The notes below the pieces were generated by a model, which did not search any database, had not been told where the DNA came from, and saw only the letters and a list, made by a program, of their open reading frames with translations. Positions 40,701 through 62,700 of a stretch of DNA of 64,000 bases are shown here, piece by piece. A program made the position numbers and the translations under genes. The first letter of the stretch is position 1, and each line of letters begins with the position of its first letter. The DNA comes from Brugia malayi (Eukaryota; Nematoda; Chromadorea; Rhabditida; Onchocercidae). Location of the stretch: NCBI RefSeq assembly GCF_000002995.4, contig NW_025062479.1:22688721-22752720 (forward strand), in the 5' to 3' direction.

Positions 40701-43700
40701 TGAATTCATCACATTGACATTTTTAAAATTTGGTGTGAAAATGAGCCATGGCCTAGTATTTCTTTGGCATTGAATAAAGCAAATCATTTTAACATAGGCT
40801 GCTACTTGATAGCATTGGCCATAACTTGATAGTCTTGGCCATATTACTTGATAGCATTGGCCATAACTTGATAGTCTTGGCCATATTACTTGATAGCATT
40901 GGCCATAACTTGATAGTCTTGGCCATATTACTTGATAGCGTTGGCCATAACTTGATAGTCTTGGCCATATTACTTGATAGCGTTGGCCATAACTTGATAG
41001 TCTTGGCCATATTACTTGATAGCATTGACCATTACTTATATGTTGCAAAATGCAATTCAGCAATCATACGATTATATTTTATCACAATAAACTTTAATTA
41101 TTACTGCTCACAATATTTGATTACAAAAATAAATTTTATTTCTTTAAAAAATTTTTCATTTTCTAAAATTTTTTTTTTTTTTAAAAAAATAAGTTACAAA
41201 GACAAAAAGAATGATAAAAAAGAGAGAGAGAGAGAGAGAAGAGAGAGGAGGAAAAGGTGAAAGAAAAAAAAATGCCAAATTTACAAAAAAAAAAAGAAAG
41301 TATTGAAGAAGTAATTTTGTTTTAAAGTTTTTTCTTTTCTTTTCGTTCCTTTTCGTTTCTTTTCTTTTTGAAATGACAAATTGGTGCTATTGGCAAAGTA
41401 AAATAAAAATGAAAAAATCATAAAAATACGAAATAAAATTAACCAAACAAAATGTCTTTTAGTACTTTAAACTTTATTTGATGCAAAAAAAAAAAAAAAA
41501 AGAAAAAAGATAAAAATAAAAAATTTAAAGTTAAATTATCTTTTTTCTTTTTTAGTAATGATAAGAAATAAAACAGTAAAAAAGAGGAATGAAAATAAAA
41601 GTAAATGATAAAATTAAGTATATTGATAAAATGGTAATTGTATAGTTAAAAAAAAAAAAAAAAACAAGGAATGTCGATGGTTTAAATCAAAACTTGTATA
41701 AAAAAGGATAAAATTGAAAATTAAATTAAAATTAAAAATTAAATTAAAAATATAATACTCTGATTTCATTAATAAAATAATTTCATGCAAATTTCTTATA
41801 TAATATAACAAAATTGTTATCATATTTTAAATTCTCACTAAATTCCATTTCATGCATAATTCTAAATTCTTTTTGATTTAAATTTTTAAAAAATTTAATT
41901 TCCATCCTATTTCTTTCCTTTTATAAAAATTAATATTTAAATCATACAAGAAAAAATAAAATTCGATTTCAATTTCTTATAAATTTATAAAAAAATTTTT
42001 TCAGTAAAATTTTTTGTTTTTTCTTTCTTTACGAATGCTAATTGTTACAGTAAGCAAAAAGTTATAATTTTGAAATTATTTAATAAATTTTTTAATAATT
42101 AATAAAATATTTCCTTTAAAAAAAAAAAGAAAGAAGCATTTATGTTTCTTTTATAAATTGCATTAAGTTTTAGAAGAAAAAAAAATAAAATATTTTTCAT
42201 TTTTGCTAATTTTATCAAAATGTGAGCATTAAATAAGCTAATTTTTCATATTTTAATTTTTATATTTTAAGTTTCATATTTCTATTTTTTTTTTCTTCAT
42301 CTAATCTTCTTCATATTAATCCTACAATTTTTCAGTTATTTGAATGTAAAAAAAAAAAAAAAAAAAAAATTGCTATGCAATTAACAAAATTATCCGAAAT
42401 TTTTGATCAAAAAATCAAGAAATGAAAAAAAAAAGTAATCAAAAAATTTCATTTATTAATAATACTTTGAAAATATTTTTTTTTTGATGTTATTTGTTTG
42501 ATTTCAAAAAGTTGGAATATTCCATAATATTTTTGAAGTTCCATTAATAATTTTCATTTTTAACAGAATTAATTTAAAATTAGCTATTTGATAGAATAAA
42601 AATTAAAATTAATTTTTATTACAACTATTGCATTCTCTTAAATATCTCACTGAATTTGTAGTTTTTAATAATCCTATTTAATATTCTTAATTTATTTATT
42701 AAAATTTTGCATTACATTCCTTTTAACACCTTAAAATGGATAGCTAATTAAGTGAGAGATTAAAAATTTTAATTAAAAAGGAACAAAATTACATTTTAAT
42801 TAAATTTCAAAATCCTTTTGCGACATAAACATAATAATATATTACAGCAATAAATCATATATCAGTGTTCTAAATAAGTTATAAAAAATCATTTTAAATA
42901 TTTATATTGCAAAAAATTTTGAAATTTTATTAAAATAAACATAGTATGCTTTAAATTAAAAATTTTAATAAAGTATTAAACTGAAAAATTTAAAAATAAA
43001 AATATCAAAAGATTAAAAATAATAAATTTTAGTTTAATTATTAACAGAAAAATAATAAATTGCAGCAATAAATCATATCACATACACATATAAATTATCA
43101 TTGTTTATTCTTTTTATCATTTTTTCCCTTTTTTTGTCTAAATAATATTTTCATTTTTATTTTTTAATATTATCTAAGCATTAAAGAAGTAATTTTAAAA
43201 AGTTATACATAAAAAAAAACTTAAAAATTAAAAATTAATTTACATTAAACAATCAATAAAAATTAAATTAAATTGATCAAAAATTGAGTGAGTGAAAAAA
43301 GTTAGAAATAAAAAAATTATTTTTCTAGCAATTTTCATTGTTTTTTCTTTTCTTAATTAAAACTAAGAAAAAATTTTCAGGCAATGAATTATAACTGAAA
43401 TAATTTTCAAATTTTAAACAAAAAAGCAAATCTTAAAAAAACATTGAAAAAAAATTTTTTTCATTAAAATTTTGGCCTATAATTTTCAATAAGCTATGTG
43501 TAAAATAACAGTAAAATAAATTATTTTCTTTATTTAATTCCATTTTTCGTTTGGAAAAAAAAAATTTAACAATTGCATAGTTTAAATTAAAATTTAAAAC
43601 ATTGAAATCATTTCATTATTTATGAAAAAATGCTAATTAAATAAACTTAAAATAATTAACTGTAATGTAAAGCATTACAAAAAAGTTAGAAATATATAAG

Positions 43701-50656: not shown

Positions 50657-53600
50657 ATGATATTTGTATATCTAAGCAAAAAGGTTATATTTTTATTCAT
50701 TTAATTTTCGTTTTTTTTTTCTTTTTTTAAAAAACAAAAGAAAAAAGTTTTAAAAAGCAAAAAAAAAAAAACGAAATAAATAGGAAGAAAACTAACTTTC
50801 ATCAATATTTACATCAGGATTTTAACAATTTTTGCTAGATAAATGGTATGAGTTGACATCCTTAAGTGTCTCATTTTGGTGACATGGTGACATTTTTGTT
50901 TTGGTGACATTTTATGATGATTGCTTCCTTCTGTTTTTTTTTTTTTTTTTTTTTAATCATTGATTAAGAAATGGAAGTTTGTATGGAAAAGAAATGAAAT
51001 TGCTATTCAACTCATCTCTTGAGAGTGCATTTGTTTGATTGATAGCATATTTTATTTGCAATGAAAAAAAAACAAAAACAAAAAAAAAAAAAAAGAGAAA
51101 TTTTGTTTTTTTTTTTTTGCTCTTAAATTTTAATAATCAAAATTTTAAGTTAAAATTTGAAATATTTTAGATTTCAATTCCAAATAGTACTAAACTATAT
51201 TGTGTATCATGGATGAAAACATCAGGATATATTGCAACTGGTGGAAATCAAGGATTACTTAAAATTCTTAAACTACCATCAAATTCGAGTTAGTGCCTTT
51301 TTTTTTTTATTTTAATTTGTTTTAAAAATTATTAGAATTGAAAAAAAAATCAGTGCAATTTATTTATTTCCATATTTCTACATTTATTCTTATATTTATT
51401 TTATTTATTTCCAATATTTTATAAAATATTCAGTATTTTTTTTTCTTCAAATTTCTCTTCTTCTTTCTCAAAAAAAACTTCAATTGTAAAAAATCTGTTT
51501 TTTTAAGAAAAGAAAAAATATTTAACTTTTTAAAATATATTACTTAAATATAAATGATAGGTAAATAAACAATTACAATAACTTTTGCAGACAATAACAA
51601 TGCTTCCTCAATAACAACAAAAAAGCTTCAGTTGTAAAAAATCTGTTTTTTTAAGAAAAGAAAAAATATTTAACTTTTTAAAATATATTACTTAAATATA
51701 AATGATAGGTAAATAAACAATTACAATAACTTTTGCAGACAATAACAATGCTTCCTCAACAATAACAACAACAACAACAACAGCGATGTCAACAAATTTA
51801 TCAATGAATCAAAATTTAGATGGACATTCGAATGTTGTTCATATAGCAGAATGGAATGAGTGCTATCAGAAGTTGACAACATGTGACAGTAATGGTTTGA
51901 TAATTGTTTGGTTGACACAAAGTGATAGTTGGTATGAGGAAATGATCAACAAAAGGAATAAATCAGTTGTGGTTGGTATGGCATGGAGTCATAATGGTAG
52001 TAAAATTGCAATCGCTTATGAGGATGGTTTGTCATTTAATTATTAAAAAAAAAAATTTTTATTTTAAAATTTCAATTAGTCGTTTTTAATTTTTAAATTT
52101 AAATATTTTATGGTGAAATCGTTTAAAATTAAAATTAATCATTTATCATTTAAAAACTATTTACATTTTAAGTATACTTTTTTAATTTTTGAAATAAGTA
52201 ATACTTATCATAATATGATATTAAAGTAAGCATTAATTATTTTACTACAATGTTATGCAAACAAGTAATACTTATTTTAATTTAGGTATTTATTTTTAAT
52301 TTTTGAAATTAGTAATACCTATCATAATATGGTATTAAAATAAGTATTAATTATTTTACTACAATATTATGCGAACAAGTAATACCTATCTACATTTTAA
52401 ATATACTTTTTTAATTTTTGAAATGAGTAATACCTATATATTAAAGTAAGCATTAATTATTTTACTACAATATTATGCAAACAAGTAATACCTATCTTAA
52501 TTTAGGTATTCATTTCTAATTTTTAAAATAAGTAATACCTATCATAATATGGTATTAAAATAAGTATTAGTTGTTTTACTAAAATATTATGCTAACAAGT
52601 AATACTTATCTTAATTTCGATATTAATTTTTAATTATTAAGTAATACCTATCATAATGTGATATTGAAATAAATATTAATATTATGCTAACAATTAATGC
52701 CTATTTACATTTTAAGTATAAATTTTTAATTTTCAAAATAATTAATACCAATGTCATATTATTATATTAAAATAAGTATTAATTATTTTACTATAATATT
52801 ATGCAAACAAGTAATACTTATCTTATTGTAGTATTATAATTATAAAAGATTTTAAATTCGATACTAACAAATAATATTGAAAAAAAAAAGAGAAATTTAA
52901 ATTGTTTGAAGCTGATTTGAAGAAAATGGCAGAAAATGATGGATGAATGAATGAAACGAATTGTATAAAAATGCTGAAAATATAAAATTAATGAAGAAAT
53001 GGAATAAATAGAAAAAGCTCAAATAATGCACTAATTTTCTTTTTTTTTTTTTAATTTAAAAATGAAATTTAGAAAATTTTAATGAAATAAATTTTTTTTT
53101 TTTTTGTAACGAATAGAACAGATTTTGAAAAGATTTATTGTTTTCTCTTTTTTTTTTTTTTTTTCAAAAGAAATATTTACAAAAAATTTAAATCAAAAAA
53201 ACAAATTAAGAAAGAAAAAATTTTTTTTAATCGAGAATGATCACAAAAAAAAAAAAAAAAAATTAGATCAAAATATTGAATTGAAAGAAGCATTTTTTTA
53301 ATTAGGTAATATATATATTATTGATGTCTTTCTTTTTCTAGAAAAAAAAAAAGAAGAAGCAAAATTTTAAATTATAATTTTTAATTTTATTTCTTTTAGG
53401 ACAAGCAATTGTTGGTTCGGTTGATGGGAATCGTTTATGGAATAAAAATGTTGCAAGTAATTTGGTGACACTCTGTGTAAATCTTTTTTTTTTCATAATT
53501 TTAATTAGCAAAAATGTTTGATAATTTTGATAGATCAAATTTTATTATTAAAAGAAATGAAAAAAAAAAAATAAGAAAACAAAGAAAATCACATAAATAA

Positions 53601-53729: not shown

Positions 53730-56700
53730 AAAAATAAAATAATTTATCATTGATATTATAAGTGTAGTATTAAAATTAAATTTTATTTGAAAAAAGTTTA
53801 TTAAAATTTTTGAAATTATTACAGTGGTCAGGTGACTCATCATTGGTACTATTCGGCTTAATAGACGGTGAAATACAGTCATATGATGCGACAGGTGTAT
53901 TTATATATAAATTACGTATGGCTTGCATAGAAAATGTTGAATTGGAAACAGCCTTAAATAGTAAATTATTTGTATTTTTTTGTCTAATTCAAAATTATTT
54001 CAACTATATGTCTCATTTGTTATGTACTTTCAAATTGATAAAAATAATTTAAATAAATAAAATTTGTTTCTTTTTCTTTTAACTAAAAATTTTATTTTAG
54101 AAGATTTACGACGTATTACAATTGTTTCGATGGAATGGTTCACTCCATTAACTCAAACAAATGAATATTCAAGCAATTATCAAGTTAATTTTAATTAATT
54201 TAAAATTGACAAAAACAAAAATATATGTACAAATTTTGTAATTTTTAAATTAATTAAATGTATCATACAAATAAAATATAAATTTAAATAATAATTTTTT
54301 TTTTTAATATTATGAATTTTGTTTCTTAAATTTCTTTTTTTCTGCATTATTTTAATCGTTATAATATATTAGTTTCAAATCTAATTGCAAAATTTAATAA
54401 TTATTAAATTTTCGTTACTGCGACGATGTCATATCCCGGATGATCGACCGCGATTTCTTGTTGCATATAATCATGGTATCATACAATTAATGCGACATGA
54501 AAATGATTCAAGTATTTAATATTTAATAATTAATAATAGAAATAAAATATGTGCATAATAGAATTTTAACATAATTATTATTTTTCATTTTTTGATAACA
54601 ATTAAAAAATTAAAAAATTTTATCCTTGTATATTTAAAATGAATATAATAATTATAATTACTAATTTAATTTATGCAGATCCAGTTATCATAAAAATACC
54701 AAATATGATAATTAGTAAGGCACGTTGGTCATCTGATGGTTCAATGCTTGCAATTTGTGGTTTACAAACAGATTTAGAAGATGAAAAATGTATGATACAT
54801 TTTATAACTGCTTATGGAGAGGTAATTAATTTTATTTGTTTTTTTTTTTTAGAAAAAATATTGATTACAAATATATAATTTTTGTTATTTATTTTTTTTT
54901 ATTGAATTATTTTAATAGCTGCTTTTCATTCAATTATTTTAATAGTTTATTACTTACAAAAATTACAAAATGTTAAAAAAATATTCTTTTAAATTAAAAA
55001 TATTTTTTGTTATCTTTCTTTTTTTTTTTTTTTTTTTTTTTTTATTGAAATTAATTATTTGAATGCATAAGAAGGAAGAAAAGTACAAAAAAAAGAAAAA
55101 AAAAACTTTATGATTAAATATTTTAAATTTTATTTCTGAAAAATTTTTTAAAAATTATTTTATTCTCTTTTTGCATACATTTTGCATATATCATTTGATA
55201 ATTTTCAAAAAATTTTTTAGCCTTTAAGAAATTTGCTAGTACCAGGACAAGCAATTACTGATATATCATGGGAAGGTGATGGCTTACGACTTTGTGCAGC
55301 AGTTGATAGCCATTTATTCTTTGCGAACATTCGACTCGATTACAAAGTGAGAAAATATTTATTACAAATTATTCCATCAAAATTAATTTATATTATAAAA
55401 ATGTGCATAAACTTGAAAAAGATTTAAAATCTCAAAAGTAAAAAATTAAATTTAATTTATACAAATTAATGTTTCAATCAACAAATTGTTAAATTTAATT
55501 TATTATTCATAATAAAAAATTATTTCTAACAATTTGATTATTGAATTAATATTTTTGATCTCTCTCTCTCCTTCTCTTTTTTTTTTTTTTGAAATATTAT
55601 ATTCATAAAAAAATGAAAGTCCAAATAAATTGTTTATCTGCTAGAAATAAGTCAAATTAGATATAAGTAAGTTAATTTTAAAATGGCATATAAATTATGC
55701 TATGATAATTTTCAACGAAAGAAAAAGTATACTTCAAAGAAACTTTTGAATTCTTTCAAAATTTCATTTTTTAAAATTTCATTTCATTTCATTTTTCTTT
55801 TTTTTTTTTTTTTCAGTGGGCTTATTGTGGTCATACAGTTATTTATTCATATGAAAGAATGGAAAGTAAAGAGCACTGCGTGGTATTTTTTCAAACAAAA
55901 CTTGAAGAAGCTTATTTACAATATGTCAAACCAATAGTTGCATTAGCATCTTCCAATGAACACTGCATCTTGATAACACGTGTAGAGAATCAAATTGGCC
56001 AGGTTTCATTTCTTTTTTCTTCTCCTTATCACTTATCAATGAACATTGCATCTTGATAACACGTGTAGAGAATCAAATTGGCCAGGTTTCATTTCTTTTT
56101 TCTTCTCCTTATCACTTATCAATGAACATTGCATCTTGATAACACGTGTAGAGAATCAAATTGGCCAGGTTTCATTTCTTTTTTCTTCTCCTTATCACTT
56201 ATCAATGAACATTGCATCTTGATAACACGTGTAGAGAATCAAATTGGCCAGGTTTCATTTCTTTTTTCTTCTCCTTATCACTTATCAATGAACATTGCAT
56301 CTTGATAACACGTGTAGAGAATCAAATTGGCCAGGTTTCATTTCTTTTTTCTTCTCCTTATCACTTATCAATGAACATTGCATCTTGATAACACGTGTAG
56401 AGAATCAAATTGGCCAGGTTTCATTTCTTTTTTCTTCTCCTTATCACTTATCAATGAACATTGCATCTTGATAACACGTGTAGAGAATCAAATTGGCCAG
56501 GTTTCATTTCTTTTTTCTTCTCCTTATCACTTATCAATGAACATTGCATCTTGATAACACGTGTAGAGAATCAAATTGGCCAGGTTTCATTTCTTTTTTC
56601 TTCTCCTTATCACTTATCAATGAACATTGCATCTTGATAACACGTGTAGAGAATCAAATTGGCCAGGTTTCATTTCTTTTTTCTTCTCCTTATCACTTAT

Positions 56701-59700
56701 CAATGAACATTGCATCTTGATAACACGTGTAGAGAATCAAATTGGCCAGGTTTCATTTCTTTTTTCTTCTCCTTATCACTTATCAATGAACATTGCATCT
56801 TGATAACACGTGTAGAGAATCAAATTGGCCAGGTTTCATTTCTTTTTTCTTCTCCTTATCACTTATCAATGAACATTGCATCTTGATAACACGTGTAGAG
56901 AATCAAATTGGCCAGGTTTCATTTCTTTTTTCTTCTCCTTATCACTTATCAATGAACATTGCATCTTGATAACACGTGTAGAGAATCAAATTGGCCAGGT
57001 TTCATTTCTTTTTTCTTCTCCTTATCACTTATCAATGAACATTGCATCTTGATAACACGTGTAGAGAATCAAATTGGCCAGGTTTCATTTCTTTTTTCTT
57101 CTCCTTATCACTTATCAATGAACATTGCATCTTGATAACACGTGTAGAGAATCAAATTGGCCAGGTTTCATTTCTTTTTTCTTCTCCTTATCACTTATCA
57201 ATGAACATTGCATCTTGATAACACGTGTAGAGAATCAAATTGGCCAGGTTTCATTTCTTTTTTCTTCTCCTTATCACTTATCAATGAACATTGCATCTTG
57301 ATAACACGTGTAGAGAATCAAATTGGCCAGGTTTCATTTCTTTTTTCTTCTCCTCATCACTTATCAATGAACATTGCATCTTGATAACACGTGTAGAGAA
57401 TCAAATTGGCCAGGTTTCATTTCTTTTTTCTTCTCCTTATCACTTATCAATGAACATTGCATCTTGATAACACGTGTAGAGAATCAAATTGGCCAGGTTT
57501 CATTTCTTTTTTCTTCTCCTTATCACTTATCAATGAACATTGCATCTTGATAACACGTGTAGAGAATCAAATTGGCCAGGTTTCATTTCTTTTTTCTTCT
57601 CCTTATCACTTATCAATGAACATTGCATCTTGATAACACGTGTAGAGAATCAAATTGGCCAGGTTTCATTTCTTTTTTCTTCTCCTTATCACTTATCAAT
57701 GAACATTGCATCTTGATAACACGTGTAGAGAATCAAATTGGCCAGGTTTCATTTCTTTTTTCTTCTCCTTATCACTTATCAATGAACATTGCATCTTGAT
57801 AACACGTGTAGAGAATCAAATTGGCCAGGTTTCATTTCTTTTTTCTTCTCCTTATCACTTATCAATGAACATTGCATCTTGATAACACGTGTAGAGAATC
57901 AAATTGGCCAGGTTTCATTTCTTTTTTCTTCTCCTTATCACTTATCAATGAACATTGCATCTTGATAACACGTGTAGAGAATCAAATTGGCCAGGTTTCA
58001 TTTCTTTTTTCTTCTCCTCATCACTTATCAATGAACATTGCATCTTGATAACACGTGTAGAGAATCAAATTGGCCAGGTTTCATTTCTTTTTTCTTCTCC
58101 TCATCACTTATCAATGAACATTGCATCTTGATAACACGTGTAGAGAATCAAATTGGCCAGGTTTCATTTCTTTTTTCTTCTCCTCATCACTTATCAATGA
58201 ACATTGCATCTTGATAACACGTGTAGAGAATCAAATTGGCCAGGTTTCATTTCTTTTTTCTTCTCCTTATCACTTATCAATGAACATTGCATCTTGATAA
58301 CACGTGTAGAGAATCAAATTGGCCAGGTTTCATTTCTTTTTTCTTCTCCTTATCACTTATCAATGAACATTGCATCTTGATAACACGTGTAGAGAATCAA
58401 ATTGGCCAGGTTTCATTTCTTTTTTCTTCTCCTTATCACTTATCAATGAACATTGCATCTTGATAACACGTGTAGAGAATCAAATTGGCCAGGTTTCATT
58501 TCTTTTTTCTTCTCCTCATCACTTATCAATGAACATTGCATCTTGATAACACGTGTAGAGAATCAAATTGGCCAGGTTTCATTTCTTTTTTCTTCTCCTT
58601 ATCACTTATCAATGAACATTGCATCTTGATAACACGTGTAGAGAATCAAATTGGCCAGGTTTCATTTCTTTTTTCTTCTCCTTATCACTTATCAATGAAC
58701 ATTGCATCTTGATAACACGTGTAGAGAATCAAATTGGCCAGGTTTCATTTCTTTTTTCTTCTCCTTATCACTTATCAATGAACATTGCATCTTGATAACA
58801 CGTGTAGAGAATCAAATTGGCCAGGTTTCATTTCTTTTTTCTTCTCCTTATCACTTATCAATGAACATTGCATCTTGATAACACGTGTAGAGAATCAAAT
58901 TGGCCAGGTTTCATTTCTTTTTTCTTCTCCTTATCACTTATCAATGAACATTGCATCTTGATAACACGTGTAGAGAATCAAATTGGCCAGGTTTCATTTC
59001 TTTTTTCTTCTCCTTATCACTTATCAATGAACATTGCATCTTGATAACACGTGTAGAGAATCAAATTGGCCAGGTTTCATTTCTTTTTTCTTCTCCTTAT
59101 CACTTATCAATGAACATTGCATCTTGATAACACGTGTAGAGAATCAAATTGGCCAGGTTTCATTTCTTTTTTCTTCTCCTCATCACTTATCAATGAACAT
59201 TGCATCTTGATAACACGTGTAGAGAATCAAATTGGCCAGGTTTCATTTCTTTTTTCTTCTCCTCATCACTTATCAATGAACATTGCATCTTGATAACACG
59301 TGTAGAGAATCAAATTGGCCAGGTTTCATTTCTTTTTTCTTCTCCTCATCACTTATCAATGAACATTGCATCTTGATAACACGTGTAGAGAATCAAATTG
59401 GCCAGGTTTCATTTCTTTTTTCTTCTCCTTATCACTTATCAATGAACATTGCATCTTGATAACACGTGTAGAGAATCAAATTGGCCAGGTTTCATTTCTT
59501 TTTTCTTCTCCTTATCACTTATCAATGAACATTGCATCTTGATAACACGTGTAGAGAATCAAATTGGCCAGGTTTCATTTCTTTTTTCTTCTCCTTATCA
59601 CTTATCAATGAACATTGCATCTTGATAACACGTGTAGAGAATCAAATTGGCCAGGTTTCATTTCTTTTTTCTTCTCCTTATCACTTATCAATGAACATTG

Positions 59701-62700
59701 CATCTTGATAACACGTGTAGAGAATCAAATTGGCCAGGTTTCATTTCTTTTTTCTTCTCCTCATCACTTATCAATGAACATTGCATCTTGATAACACGTG
59801 TAGAGAATCAAATTGGCCAGGTTTCATTTCTTTTTTCTTCTCCTTATCACTTATCAATGAACATTGCATCTTGATAACACGTGTAGAGAATCAAATTGGC
59901 CAGGTTTCATTTCTTTTTTCTTCTCCTTATCACTTATCAATGAACATTGCATCTTGATAACACGTGTAGAGAATCAAATTGGCCAGGTTTCATTTCTTTT
60001 TTCTTCTCCTTATCACTTATCAATGAACATTGCATCTTGATAACACGTGTAGAGAATCAAATTGGCCAGGTTTCATTTCTTTTTTCTTCTCCTTATCACT
60101 TATCAATGAACATTGCATCTTGATAACACGTGTAGAGAATCAAATTGGCCAGGTTTCATTTCTTTTTTCTTCTCCTCATCACTTATCAATGAACATTGCA
60201 TCTTGATAACACGTGTAGAGAATCAAATTGGCCAGGTTTCATTTCTTTTTTCTTCTCCTCATCACTTATCAATGAACATTGCATCTTGATAACACGTGTA
60301 GAGAATCAAATTGGCCAGGTTTCATTTCTTTTTTCTTCTCCTCATCACTTATCAATGAACATTGCATCTTGATAACACGTGTAGAGAATCAAATTGGCCA
60401 GGTTTCATTTCTTTTTTCTTCTCCTTATCACTTATCAATGAACATTGCATCTTGATAACACGTGTAGAGAATCAAATTGGCCAGGTTTCATTTCTTTTTT
60501 CTTCTCCTCATCACTTATCAATGAACATTGCATCTTGATAACACGTGTAGAGAATCAAATTGGCCAGGTTTCATTTCTTTTTTCTTCTCCTTATCACTTA
60601 TCAATGAACATTGCATCTTGATAACACGTGTAGAGAATCAAATTGGCCAGGTTTCATTTCTTTTTTCTTCTCCTTATCACTTATCAATGAACATTGCATC
60701 TTGATAACACGTGTAGAGAATCAAATTGGCCAGGTTTCATTTCTTTTTTCTTCTCCTTATCACTTATCAATGAACATTGCATCTTGATAACACGTGTAGA
60801 GAATCAAATTGGCCAGGTTTCATTTCTTTTTTCTTCTCCTCATCACTTATCAATGAACATTGCATCTTGATAACACGTGTAGAGAATCAAATTGGCCAGG
60901 TTTCATTTCTTTTTTCTTCTCCTTATCACTTATCAATGAACATTGCATCTTGATAACACGTGTAGAGAATCAAATTGGCCAGGTTTCATTTCTTTTTTCT
61001 TCTCCTTATCACTTATCAATGAACATTGCATCTTGATAACACGTGTAGAGAATCAAATTGGCCAGGTTTCATTTCTTTTTTCTTCTCCTTATCACTTATC
61101 AATGAACATTGCATCTTGATAACACGTGTAGAGAATCAAATTGGCCAGGTTTCATTTCTTTTTTCTTCTCCTCATCACTTATCAATGAACATTGCATCTT
61201 GATAACACGTGTAGAGAATCAAATTGGCCAGGTTTCATTTCTTTTTTCTTCTCCTCATCACTTATCAATGAACATTGCATCTTGATAACACGTGTAGAGA
61301 ATCAAATTGGCCAGGTTTCATTTCTTTTTTCTTCTCCTTATCACTTATCACTACTGATATGTTATCACTATTGATCTAATCATTCATCTGTGATAAATAA
61401 TTAATGAAATGCTTACAATGAAGCATTGAAATGAAATTTACTTTAATTGAAAAAGAAACAACAAAAAAATGTAGTTTAATTGTTAAGGAAGAAAAAATTA
61501 TAAATTAAGCAATTAATTATTTTAAAAAAAATGTATTCTTTTTTAATATTTATTTACAAATGACACAAAAAAAAGATTGAATTTTTAAGAAAAAAAATGT
61601 AGTTATAATTAAATAGTTAATTAAGAAAAATTAAGTAATTATTTATTATTAAATGATTGATTTGAAGAAAATTAAGTAATTAATTATTTGAATATATTTT
61701 TCAGTATCTTATGCAAATTTGCAATGGTATTGGAACAACAATCGATTCCAAATATATTAATTTAGAGCCAAAATATGTGGTAATGAATGATTCTGAAGTT
61801 GTAATTGCAAATAATTTATCATTTACCATTTGGCAGTATAATATTCCATGTGTTATAAATCGAGAAATAAATGTAAATGTTGACGATTCAATGACAAATG
61901 ATCAAAAGTAAATAAAATTTCATTTTGATAATTTTTTTTTTTCTTTTTTAATTGAAAATAAAATTTAAGTCTTTTTGATATTTTAATTCATTTTTAATAA
62001 TATTTCTTTTTATTTTTAACTTTCTATTATTATCATCATTATCATCATAATCGATAAATTAGTGATTAAATTGTGATTAAATTAGTGATTCTATTAGTGA
62101 TAATTATTTCTAATATTTTGCTTTTTTTCTTTAACATATTTTAAAAAATTAATGAAATTTTAGGTTATATTATGTTGATGAAAATGATGAAATTGATGTC
62201 ACATCATCTAATATTATGCGAGGACGAATACAAGTAATTAAATTTTTGAATTGAATAACATAATACTTAATAATGTTACGTATTTCATTTCTAATTTATG
62301 TAGATGTTAATTGAATTAGTAATTAAGTATAAATAAGTATTAAATGTTACATTAGAATTAGTAACTTAGCATAAATGAATGTTGAATATTACGTTACACG
62401 TAATTAACATAATTAAATGGATTATAGATATAAATAAACGTTAAATAATACGTTGCACGTAAATAACATAATTAAGTGAATTATTAATTAGGTATAAATC
62501 ACGTAATTAGCACAACTAAATGAATTAGTAGTTAGATACAAATAAACGTCAAATATTGCGTTACAACGCTAAATATTGTTAATTAGCATAATTAAATCAA
62601 ATAGTAATTAGTTCCAAATAAGCGTTAAATATTGCGTTACACGTAATTAACATAATGAAATGAATTTGTAATTAAGTATAAATAAGCGTCAAATATTACG

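Follow-up and report, generated by a model that had tools for sequence, protein, structure and literature searches.

How does the splicing machinery settle on one 5' splice site when a gene offers dozens in practically the same surroundings? The question is raised by a stretch of 64,000 nucleotides of Brugia malayi chromosome X (contig NW_025062479.1, positions 22,688,721-22,752,720, forward strand; hereafter the window), in which the gene WDR35/IFT121 carries a tandem array of 83-bp units, each including the end of exon 10 together with its donor. A first-pass annotation of this sequence had described a 65-fold array at 55954..61350, with a unit straddling the exon/intron boundary and with the exon end and its donor repeated 64 more times inside intron 10, and all of this was borne out by Tandem Repeats Finder (TRF) as well as by direct parsing. 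Four points go beyond that description, namely the location of the gene in the pseudoautosomal region (PAR), two further duplications that straddle splice boundaries of this gene, the absence of any acceptor from the unit, and a precedent in human ABCA7.

Direct parsing gave 65 head-to-tail units at 55954-61348, followed by the two bases CA and then by unique intron sequence, and TRF reported a period of 83, 65.0 copies, 99% matches and 0% indels for 55954-61350. All 64 distances between the 65 unit starts are exactly 83 bp, and a 30-nt probe of the exon-10 boundary found 64 further exact or near copies at the same steps. Each unit takes in 49 bases from the end of exon 10 and, across the donor CAG/GTTTCA (slash at the junction), 34 bases from the start of intron 10. 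Only two sites vary among the 65 x 83 bases, both of them outside the 9-nt donor. Copy 1 has C at position 10 where the other 64 have T, a synonymous change in a His codon of the exon (CAC in copy 1), and position 74, i.e. intron base +25, is C in 16 of the 65 copies, in uneven runs; otherwise, nothing in the donor context from -49 to +34 differs between copies. The first unit starts as TTC/CAATGAAC, the units join as TAT/CAATGAAC and the array ends as TAT/CACTACTG, so that a 2-bp CA is common to all three, which fits a tandem duplication between short matching ends. Unique sequence flanks the array on both sides within one contig. In the 86.8-Mb assembly, all 65 matches to the unit lie inside this array (repeat counts being lower bounds). 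Distant relatives could escape, and as far as such matches reach the unit is not one of a dispersed satellite family.

The host gene, proposed to be WDR35, was identified as such by its match to the WD repeat-containing protein 35 of PDB 8fgw (E 4.2e-125) and by matches to filarial WDR35 proteins, with 90% identity to that of Loa loa and 92% to one of Brugia pahangi. The window together with the flank behind it yielded a 21-exon model, in frame, that extends from exon 3 to position 69428, short of the gene end, with 20 junctions of which one lacks an AG acceptor. Two upstream exons were detected as peptides near 50669 and 51174, which makes the array-bearing exon number 10. Both this number and the proposed boundaries of the intron (exon 10 ending at 56002, the next exon starting at 61705) were recovered in the model. 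Furthermore, the proteins of 8 out of 10 relatives (Loa, Cercopithifilaria, B. pahangi, Elaeophora, Onchocerca, Acanthocheilonema, Setaria and Thelazia) pass from ...GQ or ...NQ straight into Y[LF]MQI at the exon 10/exon 11 junction; of the other two, Dracunculus is without the stretch and the Dirofilaria model begins downstream. The Wuchereria bancrofti gene model also joins the two exons at the first donor. Coming from gene models, these junctions support the boundary and are not RNA evidence. Elsewhere in the gene, at 54184-54420, the intron before exon 7 leads to a conserved exon that no usable AG acceptor immediately precedes; the closest AG is followed by an in-frame stop, and the model requires a TG end or skipping. 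In that region, one B. pahangi model ends after the preceding exon, and another skips both exons. No matches were found in the 64-kb window with Rfam at the gathering threshold or with a bacterial-code tRNA scan. In Caenorhabditis elegans, mutants of the WDR35 orthologue ifta-1 are viable.

What would the use of any other donor lead to? The claim that only the first donor gives the conserved protein agrees with the junctions of the relatives, and the claim that later donors stop the frame within one unit also held, as retention of 1, 2, 3 or 64 units invariably led to the same TGA, the 80th codon counted from the exon-10 start (Table 1). The tail encoded by the unit is absent from the Wuchereria protein and from one B. 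pahangi protein, the two examined out of 104 matching public proteins. The 64 later donors lack an acceptor of their own: scores are -2.45, -10.93 and -2.81 for the three AGs within the unit, the last being the AG just before the donor, as compared with 3.76 to 12.19 for the AG acceptors of the gene. Two other GTs in the unit score 0.34 and 1.76. A recursive (ratchet) splicing element has an acceptor directly upstream of a regenerated donor. Since the array holds donors without acceptors, stepwise removal is unlikely, and both recursive splicing and a 17-nt micro-exon inside the unit were rejected for want of an acceptor-like AG. Nor is the array a tandem exon duplication, as the unit begins 137 nt into the 186-nt exon and has no such AG.

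Table 1. Features of the WDR35 array and of the neighboring exons, in window numbering.
Feature	Position	Strand	Remarks
WDR35 exon 10	55817..56002	+	186 nt, phase 0; copy 1 starts inside it at 55954; in-frame splice model and filarial gene models
Unit copy 1	55954..56036	+	49 exon-10 and 34 intron-10 bases; C at position 10 in this copy alone
First (productive) 5' splice site, CAG/GTTTCA	56000..56008	+	leave-one-out score 4.33, 17th of 20
Unit copies 2-65, with 64 decoy donors	56037..61348	+	all with T at position 10; 16 with C at position 74
CA microhomology	61349..61350	+	common to first-unit start, unit junctions and array end
In-frame TGA met on unit retention	56054..56056	+	1, 2, 3 and 64 units tested
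WDR35 exon 11	61705..61907	+	acceptor TTTTTCAG, score 6.86; splice model
148-bp tandem duplication	51471..51768	+	exon-3 acceptor ACTTTTGCAG doubled; 146/150 compared bases identical
WDR35 exon 3	51739..52026	+	via downstream copy of the duplicated acceptor; splice model

The exon-10 donor is not the only boundary of WDR35 to have been duplicated. When each boundary was probed with 15 + 15 nt, 3 out of 42 had nearby copies, the exon-10 donor included. One is the acceptor of exon 3, the upstream copy of which leads to a stop. The other is the donor of exon 15 (64224 in window numbering, position 224 of the stretch L009), where a 63-bp, 5.2-copy array with 83% matches starts (64205-64532, or L009:205-532). 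In this array the donor is retained in copy 2 and has lost its GT in copies 3 and 4; copy 5 is without the last G of the exon, a GT being kept. A fresh array, a decayed older one and a simple duplication within one gene would be better accounted for by a recurrent mutational process than by selection for a special element. A later intron of WDR35 holds yet another array (L009:4436-5072; 41-bp unit, 15.7 copies), with a GC content of 0.41 within a stretch of 0.22, and its unit has CTCCTTATCA and CGTGTA in common with the 83-bp unit.

To which known kind of element does the array belong? Minisatellites are defined by head-to-tail units of roughly 10-100 bp, and the 83-bp head-to-tail, locus-specific units found here are of this kind. 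Competition of identical donors for one acceptor is known from globin-gene constructs with duplicated 5' splice sites, which carry two or a few engineered copies and not, as in WDR35, 65 natural ones. The closest counterpart is the variable number tandem repeat (VNTR) in intron 18 of human ABCA7, in which the first two bases of the 25-bp unit are those of the exon-18 donor, and which measures 592 bp in the reference and 9,711 bp in one allele (PMC5954066). Frame-shifting isoforms are reported there at 14 ± 6% and 2 ± 1%, to be assigned, from their order in the text, to a cryptic exon-18 acceptor and to one-unit retention, respectively (PMC5954066). In both genes, the tandem array starts at the donor of a coding exon, reaches kilobase length and carries that donor in every unit, and retention of a unit stops the frame. 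The WDR35 unit differs in also containing 49 coding bases, while that of ABCA7 has the GT as its first two bases and is slightly variable from copy to copy. Moreover, the ABCA7 array is polymorphic and RNA-tested, whereas that of WDR35 is known here from the DNA sequence of one assembly. The precedent places the WDR35 array in a known kind, and the best prediction may be that the first donor dominates, with one-unit retention as a minor, stopped product. Other repeats are more distant. TERT VNTR6-1 is likewise an intronic minisatellite of a coding gene, but the opening of its abstract makes no mention of repeated copies of an exon's own donor (PMC11830802). The HhaI and MboI repeats, although repeated DNA of the same genome, are described as multi-locus families (PMC7181701), as opposed to a unit matched in one intron. 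No earlier report of the WDR35 array was found among the listed titles and abstract openings of open-licence papers on Brugia repeats and on competing or duplicated splice sites (in one case the first 10 of 86).

The chromosomal setting adds a further element. Chromosome X of B. malayi comprises 24,943,668 bases (PMC7181701, Table 1), with a putative PAR of about 2.6 Mb from about 22.3 Mb on (PMC7181701), and B. pahangi has been reported to have a similar one (PMC8575316); the window falls inside the PAR of B. malayi. Taken together, we consider it probable that the array is a young minisatellite that arose where exon 10 meets intron 10 in the PAR-located WDR35 and was amplified to about 65 copies, with a strongly dominant first donor. 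Its birth would have been a tandem duplication with 2-bp microhomology across that junction, and its growth to the present size may have come about by unequal exchange or slippage. As exon 10 stayed in place as copy 1, the first donor still yields the full-length protein. Through exon definition, with the exon-10 acceptor and the first donor recognized as a pair, this donor would be strongly dominant, leaving a small share of a frame-stopped isoform with one or more units, presumably cleared as faulty mRNA, and the effect of the array is probably near neutral. Private mutations are lacking, and from this an age of about 19,000-206,000 generations was calculated (two mutation rates; one expected mutation or the 95% bound), which is not relied on, since Illumina polishing may have evened out the copies.

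Several observations weigh against this reading. Scored by a position matrix built on the gene's 19 remaining donors, the exon-10 donor ranks among the weaker ones (Table 1). It lies 5,702 nt from its acceptor, the donor of copy 65 only 390 nt, which is also what would be left of intron 10 without the 64 extra units, and pure intron definition would favor the last donor. Predicted RNA accessibility is about 3-fold higher for the first donor (0.081, as compared with a median of 0.029), and the predicted fold is no better than that of shuffled sequences (z-score 0.27); masking of the decoy donors by RNA structure was not adopted on these grounds. Within the gene, splice boundaries are not enriched for duplications, as nearby copies were found for 118 out of 241 random gene positions, many of them inside the array, which fills much of the gene span, and for 33 out of 300 positions elsewhere in the window. 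A 14-copy block occurs twice in the T/C pattern, but was reached by 83 of 3000 full and 364 of 3000 run-preserving shuffles, which makes it weak evidence of block exchange, and the autocorrelation of the pattern (0.28) stays under the 95% permutation limit (0.47). A higher-order block structure read from the pattern was set aside as weak. A large array also occurs outside the PAR: at about 10.2 Mb of chromosome X, a 29-bp unit forms a 7-kb array of 232 copies with 88% matches (L020:1-7002), which starts at the edge of the fetched stretch and is longer than that of WDR35. Lastly, the comparison of the PAR with other X sequence, to which we now turn, covers few stretches, all from X and none autosomal, and its PAR part is poorer in GC.

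With thresholds of period ≥20, copies ≥3 and score ≥200, 19 arrays were found in 124 kb of PAR (7 out of 9 stretches), as opposed to 2 in 190 kb of other X sequence (2 out of 19 stretches). The window and three flanks were among the PAR stretches because of the WDR35 array itself, but the five chosen independently of it gave a similar picture, with arrays in 4 out of 5 as compared with 2 out of 19 (Fisher p 0.0065). At the same thresholds, none of ten simulated 124-kb sequences of local composition (1.24 Mb) held an array, and local base composition alone does thus not yield them. This suggests that the B. malayi PAR is rich in minisatellites. Among the 21 array consensuses, the words CTTGATA, ACGTGTA and CTCCTTA appeared to be enriched, with individual p values of 1.1e-5 to 3e-5 (809 seven-base words tried), and in raw PAR counts, some arrays included, CTTGATA was seen 42 times against 18.0 and TTGGCCA 15 times against 3.8. 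A common recombination word in the arrays was nevertheless rejected, as with arrays masked the counts were 8 for CTTGATA, 2 for TTGGCCA and 3 for ACGTGTA, against 15.1, 2.5 and 2.8 expected. Outside tandem arrays, TGATAA was counted 350 times in the sampled PAR (stretches L009-L011 and L031-L035 and the window) against 177.4 expected, and 318 times in the other sampled X sequence against 242.4. The window itself also contains a 42-bp, 5.6-copy array with 97% matches at 40803-41037, which stays open in a reading frame of either strand.

Could the copy number instead be an error of assembly, with a true number of units that is far smaller or very different, and look-alike units created by consensus polishing? 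The assembly was made from PacBio RSII reads with HGAP, gap filling by PBJelly, Quiver and repeated ICORN correction with Illumina data (PMC7181701). Short reads cannot be placed within 83-bp repeats, and with gap filling and Illumina correction the copy number and the near-identity of the copies are provisional. In an indirect comparison, the one made with the DNA of a relative, a 2,693-bp contig of W. bancrofti carries the gene model across the junction of exons 10 and 11, with space for at most about 11 extra units. That contig, however, may be a short-read collapse or reflect a real difference between the species, and the unique flanks on both sides in one contig, together with the unevenly grouped C variants of 16 copies, which need not arise in a consensus that was collapsed or copied, render such an error rather unlikely.

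Another alternative is that the array lowers or tunes WDR35 output according to copy number, by holding U1 small nuclear ribonucleoprotein (U1 snRNP), by favoring later donors or intron retention, or by changing the skipping of flanking exons. It would find support in the identical donors spread over 5.3 kb and in the stop that every tested retention encounters, as well as in ABCA7, where longer arrays go with more exon-19 skipping and less total expression, the latter down by 33% from the smallest to the largest diploid allele combination (PMC5954066). The unit-retained isoform of ABCA7 is nonetheless constant across array lengths (PMC5954066), i.e. the extra donors there did not bring more use of them, and any length effect on WDR35 may likewise stem from causes other than the extra donors. 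We regard tuning of this sort as improbable. Preference for the last, intron-proximal donor, by which most transcripts would be stopped and the gene crippled in the sequenced strain, appears still less credible. The 390 nt between that donor and the acceptor are indeed near the median of the modelled introns (399 nt), and the intron from the first donor is about four times as long as the next longest (1,373 nt), but a 5.5-kb exon would be required, and a frame intact over 20 modelled junctions, with 90-92% identity to Loa and B. pahangi, argues against a dead gene.

More speculatively, and with little expectation on our part that it will prove right, the acceptor-less donors might act as landing sites for U1 snRNP that delay or divert the removal of intron 10, a copy-number rheostat by which WDR35 output and the sensory cilia would vary with array length; given the PAR location, in which male recombination is expected to be concentrated, that length could shift fast and differ between the X and Y copies. 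Least likely of all, though compatible with the other readings, is that the array, like others in the PAR, was retained since repeats aid X-Y pairing or recombination, for which the high array density in the sampled PAR and the many minisatellite-like tandem repeats among human PAR1 PRDM9 binding peaks (PMC4102438) might speak, but CTTGATA, TTGGCCA and ACGTGTA, words that the unit has in common with other arrays, show no enrichment in PAR sequence outside arrays, and the density may result from recombination instead of serving it.

The young minisatellite with a dominant first donor, which we favor, presents a natural extreme of a classic splicing question, i.e. how one donor is chosen among identical ones. 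Its 65 donors stand in near-identical context, each choice can be read from the length of the product, and worm RNA can be sequenced. Within one gene, duplications across splice boundaries are found at three places, fresh and decayed arrays included, and a minisatellite-rich nematode PAR would recall the minisatellite-like repeats at PRDM9-bound sites of the human PAR1 (PMC4102438). The WDR35 array is an unusually clean case of a tandem array that includes a splice donor, and a good natural experiment on donor choice.

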